Below, piece by piece: positions 32,344 to 33,088 of a stretch of 64,000 bases of DNA (its first letter is position 1; each line of letters starts with the position of its first letter). The stretch comes from Thiohalobacter thiocyanaticus (GTDB lineage Bacteria; Pseudomonadota; Gammaproteobacteria; Thiohalobacterales; Thiohalobacteraceae): assembly GCF_003932505.1 (NCBI RefSeq), contig NZ_QZMU01000001.1, forward strand, positions 2,799,001 through 2,863,000, given 5' to 3'. A program made the position numbers and the translations under genes. Under the pieces are notes generated by a model, which worked only from the letters and a program-made list of their open reading frames with translations, had not been told where the DNA came from and searched no databases.

Positions 32344-32406
32344 AGACCCCGCCCGCAACCTGCCTTTTCCGGCGACGCATGGGGTATAATGCCGCGCTGG
32401 ATTTCC

Positions 32407-32673
32407 AGGGCCTGTAAACACTAATCCAATCGTCTCTGTTGGGCCTGAAACAGCGCCAATCGAGGCGCGAGGAGCGCAGTTTGGTGATTCCAAATAAGCG
32501 ACGAGCAACGACGAGTGGCGCTGTTTCAGGCGCAACCCGCAGGGCTGGGGCTGATTTTCCGCCCAGCGGCGTTATCATTCGCTCATGTAGAATAACTACA
32601 CTTCGCTCATTCTGCCTTGCTGGACGAAAAATCAGCCCCAGCAGAGGCGATTGGATTAGTGTTTACAGACCCT
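32407..32673. repeat. 267-bp palindromic element with three-way-junction folding potential
   Basis: Three stems are visible. P1: 32407-32438 with 32642-32673, 30 of 32 positions complementary, enclosing the rest. P2: 32443-32458 with 32516-32531, a perfect 16-bp stem. P3: 32544-32567 with 32619-32642, 22 of 24 identical. Smaller hairpins sit at each tip: TTTGG/CCAAA (32480-32494) and TGTAG/CTACA (32586-32600), the latter flanked by TTCGCTCAT direct repeats. P1 enclosing P2 and P3 side by side is a three-way junction. No reading frame or transposase is inside; it may be a MITE-like element or a structured RNA. Confidence 0.85.
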
Positions 32674-32692
32674 AGCAAGCGGTGAGTATTCC

Positions 32693-33088
32693 ATGTCTGA
32701 ATCGGAAAAACCCTGTCTGTTCTGCCGCCAGCACGACAAGGTGCTGGAAAACGACCTGGCCTGGGCCAGCTACGATACCTATCCGGTCTCACCCGGCCAC
32801 ATGCTGGTCATGCCCAAGCGCCATGTGGCGGACTACTTCGACATGACCCGGGAGGAGAAGGTCGCCGTCATGGAACTGATCGACGAGGTCAAGGCGATCA
32901 ACGACCGGGAACGCCAGCCCGACGGCTACAACGTAGGTGTGAACTGCGGCCCCGCCGCCGGTCAGTCGGTCATGCATGTGCACATCCACGTCATGCCCCG
33001 CTACTGGGGGGACATGGAGAACCCGCGCGGCGGCGTGCGCGGCGTGATACCGGACAAGCAGAAATACGTGAAGCAGCAGAGTGCCTGA
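32693..33088 (+). CDS. HIT family protein (second, distinct subfamily)
   Basis: 131 residues: PCLFC at the N-terminus, GHMLVMPKRHVADYFDM, and the triad HVHIH followed by VMPRYWGDMENPRGGVRGVIP. This VRGVIP tail is typical of the Ap4A/HIT-hydrolase branch rather than HinT. It starts 20 bases after the palindromic element, so that element forms its 5' leader region. Confidence 0.92.
   Translation: MSESEKPCLFCRQHDKVLENDLAWASYDTYPVSPGHMLVMPKRHVADYFDMTREEKVAVMELIDEVKAINDRERQPDGYNVGVNCGPAAGQSVMHVHIHVMPRYWGDMENPRGGVRGVIPDKQKYVKQQSA

Follow-up and report, generated by a model that had tools for sequence, protein, structure and literature searches.

A 267-bp IS5-family MITE of Thiohalobacter thiocyanaticus belongs to a family whose fold appears to be conserved by selection, with an inferred role at the DNA level

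Introduction

The leader of a HIT-family gene in Thiohalobacter thiocyanaticus contains a 267-bp stretch of self-complementary DNA, which raises the question of what kind of unit this is and whether its fold matters as RNA or as DNA. The stretch lies in a window of 64,000 nt (the whole piece of DNA analyzed here; contig NZ_QZMU01000001.1, assembly GCF_003932505.1, positions 2,799,001-2,863,000 of the forward strand). An earlier note on this DNA considered a MITE-like element, a structured ncRNA or a leader RNA, and proposed looking for further copies, empty sites, target-site duplications and covariation among homologues; a single copy without covariation was to refute it. Our overall reading, which we hold with good confidence, is that the sequence is an IS5-family MITE with a fold of about 267 bp that is conserved by selection, the role of this fold at the DNA level being an inference.

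Results

Architecture and position of the element

The boundaries proposed previously, 32407-32673, proved to be exact, and the closing stem is complementary at 30 of its 32 positions. The side stem P2 (GCCTGAAACAGCGCCA / TGGCGCTGTTTCAGGC) is a perfect 16 bp within a 25-nt arm that is 92% complementary, while P3 has the 22 of 24 complementary positions claimed for it. The three-way junction described in the earlier note is correct in its stems and two arms, but a 3-bp hairpin, CCC-GCA-GGG, at 32536-32544 had been missed and the junction is strictly four-way. The features of the locus, in window coordinates, are as follows.

32407..32673, + strand: whole element, 267 bp with the A/T of each end counted (once it is removed, the locus is collinear with the empty sites; 10 full-length host copies)
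32407..32438, no strand: closing stem, 5' side (30/32 paired with 32642-32673; inner half free in sequence, pairing kept family-wide)
32642..32673, no strand: closing stem, 3' side
32438..32536, + strand: arm A, with an outer stem that varies and a tip that is conserved (AGGCGCGAGGAGCG.AGTTTGG..CCAAAT.AGCGACGAGCAACG)
32536..32544, no strand: central mini-hairpin CCC-GCA-GGG between the arms (pairs kept in 26-27 of 27 copies)
32544..32642, - strand: arm B, an inverted version of arm A that has diverged from it, the tip being laid out alike
32407..32423, + strand: left terminal inverted repeat AGGGCCTGTAAACACTA (family consensus AGGGCCTGTTAACACTA; from the alignment, matches IS5-family ends)
32657..32673, - strand: right terminal inverted repeat
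32406..32407, no strand: left target copy, CA (51 of 63 family members have TA here)
32673..32674, no strand: right target copy, TA
32385..32390, + strand: TATAAT, -10-like, 5' of the element (kept in the empty sites)
32693..33088, + strand: HIT-family gene, 131 aa, a host gene outside the element and downstream of it

Arm B can be described as an inverted, diverged arm A because the element, over its full length, matches its reverse complement (68% identity over 1-267). The predicted RNA folding energy is -153.7 kcal/mol for the plus strand and -159.7 kcal/mol for the minus strand (z about -14; none of 200 shuffles folded as well), and folding with DNA parameters gave a z of -14.5. Two mechanical reading frames (78 aa on the plus strand, 111 aa on the minus strand) cross the element and run into its ends, with no sign of being genes.

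The placement of the element in the HIT leader was also correct: the gene starts at 32693 and the TATAAT at 32385-32390 lies upstream of the element and is conserved in the empty sites. The element would then belong to the transcribed part of the probable leader, with use of the TATAAT as promoter inferred; a promoter scan at the locus found no sigma-70 pair. The insertion leaves the region just before the HIT start codon free, and the empty sites keep the same region.

Copies, empty sites and IS5-family ends

The host genome carries 10 full-length copies, on both contigs and in both orientations, six of them at 93-100% identity and the most diverged at about 75%. Nearly all begin with AGGGYCTGTWAACRCT and finish with its mirror image. 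Relatives were found in 10 of 56 genomes. In two congeners the HIT locus lacks the element, and the empty site is precise and without rearrangement: the window minus exactly 267 bp aligns to both empty sites without gaps, with small differences only around the junction. Copy number and empty sites, two of the checks proposed at the outset, therefore both came out in favor of a mobile element. The third concerned target-site duplication. Among 63 mini-elements, the dinucleotide beside GGG is TA in 51 and that beside CCC is TA in 49, with TA on both sides in 42. The window copy is flanked by CA and TA, its left copy being altered.

The left flank reads CCAGGG in place of CTAGGG in five copies of the host genome (L001, L005, L009, L010 and L033). 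This recurrent change of CTAGG to CCAGG at left junctions is the product expected of very-short-patch (Vsr) repair, although such an origin is speculation. Solitary terminal repeats without a mate also occur in this genome, at G000:C1:371483 (L045), G000:C1:12084 (L028) and G000:C1:1216901 (L047). The CTAGGG junction of L045 lies directly before a clpX-like gene, and its TAG may be the stop codon of the upstream frame.

The ends of the element (AGGGCCTGTTAACACTA) match those of IS5-family elements of 810-825 bp that carry a two-frame transposase. A genome of the same family (G006) contains an element of 809-810 bp with ends AGGGCGTGTTAACACTAAT and an IS5 transposase in two overlapping frames (DUF4096 and DDE_Tnp_1, NF033580 IS5), one of the 17 end bases being different. 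Scanning named genomes for the terminal 17-mer TAGGGCCTGTTAACACTA revealed further elements of this type. One of 825 bp, in Pelomonas, carries the 17-mer unchanged at each end; those in MAGs of Acidobacteria and Nitrospira measure 817 bp and have one perfect end and one that is a single base off. Each has a split transposase of the same kind. At 267 bp, with terminal repeats of about 17 bp, the window element meets the size (under about 500 bp) and end criteria for a MITE. The multiple copies, the empty sites, the terminal repeats shared with IS5 elements and the TA flanks establish that it is one, a DNA transposon that is non-autonomous. Derivation from IS630 or Tn3 was ruled out by the IS5 transposase found between matching ends, and a single-copy leader RNA by the copy number.

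In the host genome itself (assembly 92% complete), searches for PF01609 and for relatives of the G006 transposase were negative. A genome with an active MITE usually holds the matching transposase as well, although this is not an absolute requirement. Current mobility there is therefore unproven, and mobilization in trans, or in the past, is inferred.

One might instead suppose that the element is kept for a service to the host at its insertion sites, as an insulator, a nucleoid-protein site or a means of leader control. An insertion that falls in a gene leader yet spares the stretch ahead of the start codon is compatible with such a service, as is the age of copies that have had time to diverge to about 75% within one genome. 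Against this, two congeners do without the element at this locus and show no rearrangement, and the ends of the family track IS elements. We consider a host service of this kind very improbable.

Length, host range and ends of the family

A search on the ends alone gave elements between 36 and 393 bp long, with 28 of the 55 falling at 265-268 bp. This search was unselected with respect to the interior; searches based on the interior could favor lengths like that of the query, whereas searches based on the ends could not. Hosts of the end-found elements are Ca. Thiodiazotropha, Ca. Tenderia, Thiogranum, Competibacteraceae, Woeseiaceae, Marinicella, Neptuniibacter, Agaribacterium, Variovorax, Ideonella, Achromobacter, Pusillimonas, Zetaproteobacteria and Acidobacteriaceae. 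These assignments come from record titles, many of them of metagenome bins, and single ones may be wrong. The 265-268 bp cluster spans Gamma-, Beta- and Zetaproteobacteria and Acidobacteria. Most end-found elements have the same fold, and a few in which the arms are still alike are predicted to form one long hairpin. In Betaproteobacteria and Acidobacteria, identity to the window copy falls to 49-53%; the members share the fold down to about 50% identity.

A search based on the interior found the element in 41 of 369 genomes of the class. Homologues found in this way with other ends (AGAGCCTGTCTGTGAATAAATC, AGGGGGTGTTAACAATTAATAAGG, AGGGCCTGTTCACACTACG) are mostly 266-269 bp long. Versions of 267 bp with ends AGGGTCTGTTGACGTT occur on plasmids of Pseudomonas aeruginosa and Azotobacter, and a 266-bp version on a Variovorax plasmid; two contigs catalogued as viral carry two-arm copies of 268 and 265 bp, which were found via the terminal repeat. 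With the window copy as blastn query, no match came from plasmids, phages or E. coli genomes, while more distant copies did match plasmids, and the exact tip-motif pattern returned nothing in viral contigs. Two-arm repeats with the ends AGAGCCTGTCTGTGAATAAATC, AGGGGGTGTTAACAATTAATAA or AGGGTCTGTTGACGTT follow the same interior plan at 266-268 bp but have different terminal repeats, and therefore presumably use a different IS5-type transposase. For the AGAGCCTGTCTGTGAATAAATC ends, the loci examined for an IS contained only MITE-sized end pairs.

Several variants in size and interior were observed. The 27-bp palindrome ACCCCAAGGGCACTTCCTTCGGGGCGC is inserted in the arms or stems of L154, L189, L193, L212, L232, L241 and L250, all from Thiodiazotropha and relatives, and of L272, giving lengths of 294 bp (+27) or 321 bp (+54), that is, a mini-palindrome nested in a MITE. 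L276 has a similar 27-bp insert located at the same tip bulge. There are 320-bp versions in the host genome (L007, G000:C2:78382-78701) and in G002 (L060). L007 carries a 16-bp palindromic insert of the ATACCCATAGGGCATA type at the AAGGCG bulge, which is an insert site in other genomes also (L011, L272, L276). At the other extreme, minimal elements of about 53-61 bp comprise little beyond the two ends (L033, G000:C1:1634399; L029, G000:C1:85249; L178, L219 and L225), L029 sharing the left end but enclosing another palindromic sequence. Two elements of 159-163 bp in a Maribacter MAG (L174, L210) combine the same ends with an unrelated hairpin interior; they may represent a separate MITE that depends on this type of transposase, or the contig may be mis-binned. 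In the 269-bp element L289, arm B apparently runs the other way round, as though an inversion had affected one arm.

Conservation and covariation of the fold

An alignment of 27 diverse copies yielded a consensus structure of 91 pairs, which was compared with 500 shuffles and with slid structures. Paired cells amounted to 94.8% in the 27 copies, against 75.8% in the shuffles and 36-44% for the slid structures. Two-sided changes were present at 71 of the 91 pairs (39.5 shuffled, 32-39 slid), and the covariation score was 0.492, compared with 0.138 +/- 0.007 and 0.07-0.10. No shuffle out of 500 reached any of the five measures. Taking the consensus structure from the same alignment favors it; nevertheless, the slid controls lay very far off. 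The earlier suggestion of selection or descent as a folded unit thus finds support in covariation across 27 diverse homologues that is stronger than its author could have known, and the case of one copy without covariation does not apply.

Averaged over columns, conservation reaches 94% for the terminal repeats, 87% for the center, and 86% and 77% for the tips of arms A and B respectively. The arm stems reach 72-74% and the inner closing stem only 54%, although its pairs hold. Between copies at least 97% identical, single-sided changes outnumber compensated ones by 9 to 2, and between copies 93-97% identical by 156 to 67; below 75% identity the order is reversed, with 14,451 single-sided and 37,206 compensated changes. 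As the sequence pairs are not independent, these counts indicate a trend and are not a test. The trend fits the pattern expected if mutation and then compensation had occurred stepwise. As far as sequence comparison can tell, stems that change letters yet stay paired, together with conserved tips, support selection on the fold across bacterial phyla.

Long inverted repeats are known to undergo quasipalindrome correction, in which template switching or conversion during replication keeps the arms complementary; the fold could be a passive product without function, and the mostly two-sided stem changes between distant copies would suit this. Such correction should, however, remove the non-complementary tip loops (AAGGCG / CAACGCCG, GAGCG / AGCGA), which persist. 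Nor does it sit well with tips that are more conserved than stems, with the prevalence of single-sided changes between near-identical copies, or with a length that is constant across phyla. A purely passive origin seems to us rather doubtful. Template switching within the element could still yield some paired changes without selection and may add to the pairing, but this leaves the kept non-complementary tip loops unexplained.

Discussion

DNA or RNA level

Selection on the fold could act on RNA, if the element is transcribed in mRNAs such as that of the HIT gene and the folded transcript is favored, for example as an RNase III-cleaved or stabilizing leader, for which the Correia/NEMIS or ERIC elements offer a comparison. 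The position between the conserved TATAAT and the HIT start, the RNA fold z of -14 and a covariation pattern that is that of a structured RNA would all agree with this. Selection on one RNA strand should, however, favor G-U pairs, and mismatches in the outer stems of the 27 copies comprise 50 G-T and 40 A-C, about equal numbers. By stem, the G-T:A-C counts are 23:15 (closing stem), 13:8 (arm A) and 14:17 (arm B), and in 33 representatives the closing stem has 33:19. The G-T excess visible in these comparisons is at best weak, where one-strand RNA selection should give a clear one, and the counts behind this strand test are small. A large excess in a crude 34-nt count came from positions beyond the closing stem and was discarded. 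The earlier remark that the stem differences would give G-U wobble on one strand holds for the minus strand in three of four cases, while the fourth gives it on the plus strand and the family as a whole does not bear out a clear bias.

Further points weigh against a function as RNA: the arms are inverted, so that each strand has one sense and one antisense tip, the copies lie in both orientations, and there is no Rfam family, with no match for the locus at E <= 1 and none for eight relatives at the gathering score. Of the identities first considered, the MITE is upheld, whereas nothing specific for an ncRNA or leader RNA emerged. We judge an RNA-level function unlikely. Because the mismatches show no clear strand bias and the arms are inverted copies, selection on folded DNA appears the more likely of the two, an inference that has not been demonstrated.

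Proposed mechanism

The following scheme may be envisaged for the movement of the element and the part played by its fold. An IS5-type transposase supplied in trans would recognize the terminal repeats of about 17 bp, although the acting transposase and the cell in which it works have not been shown, and would place the element into TA, frequently inside CTAG or YTAR. Beyond the ends, the element has a fixed plan of about 267 bp, consisting of the closing stem, arm A, the CCC-hairpin and the inverted arm B. In a cruciform, or in a hairpin formed while the DNA is single-stranded at replication or excision, both ends could come together in one paired stem. The closing stem would then join the termini of a single strand as a duplex, and the transposase site would lie at the base of that duplex. 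The arm tips might be bound by the transposase or a host protein, or might promote extrusion; there are no binding data on this point. That the fold acts as DNA by making the element a better substrate is our tentative proposal, inferred without binding, transcription or transposition data.

With similar reserve, we suggest that this is a phylum-spanning mobile family whose inherited unit is a folded nucleic acid of about 267 bp, with ends exchangeable among IS5 specificities and a fold needed for propagation, a possibility that remains short of a firm conclusion. If the fold does aid transposition, this would represent a DNA-structure requirement in a DDE transposon, and one that is directly testable. 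The elements also form a new family for annotation, present but unmarked between the genes of many genomes, plasmids and contigs catalogued as viral among them.

Comparison with known systems

The closest relatives by their ends are the IS5 elements of about 810-825 bp with two overlapping transposase frames and TA duplication, which we take to be IS427-like. Those examined (L103, L164, L175, L211) share the ends AGGGC(C/G)TGTTAACACTA and the TA flanks; unlike the MITE, they encode a transposase, and they have no arm sequence in common with it beyond the ends. Correia/NEMIS, ERIC, R0/R2 and REPIN repeats differ from the element in length, ends and fold (they were not aligned), and REPINs consist of REP hairpins, which bear a GTAG tag, with REP-associated tyrosine transposases rather than DDE/IS5 ends. 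The terminal repeats and TA flanks of the element point away from a REP/REPIN origin. All of these repeats, including R0/R2 of P. fluorescens (PMC2718517), are likewise small, dispersed, palindromic and gene-free. The structure motifs of Borrelia plasmids (PMC2674063) are also intergenic repeats with compensatory stem changes and have been discussed beside MITEs, but they are short single stem-loops and not a phylum-spanning transposable element.

A known IS5-family MITE is MITEPsy1 of Pseudomonas syringae, of 100 nt and with a narrow distribution (PMC3189936). According to the portion of that report available to us, it resembles our element in being non-coding, in having near-identical IS5-family terminal repeats, in being dispersed and mobilized in trans (the latter inferred for our element), and in its target, CTAG or YTAA; the same portion reports no conserved two-arm interior, fixed length or covariation, which are features of the element studied here. 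Topic and sequence-word searches of the open-access literature found no MITE that combines a conserved fold with a constant length and ends that can be exchanged; ISfinder and subscription papers were outside their scope, and single members may possibly have been named before. IS5-ended MITEs are already known, and what is unusual is the conserved, covarying interior of fixed length. Whereas MITEs are usually regarded as short-lived debris, defined by their ends only, the gene-free interior of this one keeps its length and its four-way fold even where identity has dropped to about 50%, and it covaries in the manner of a structured RNA.
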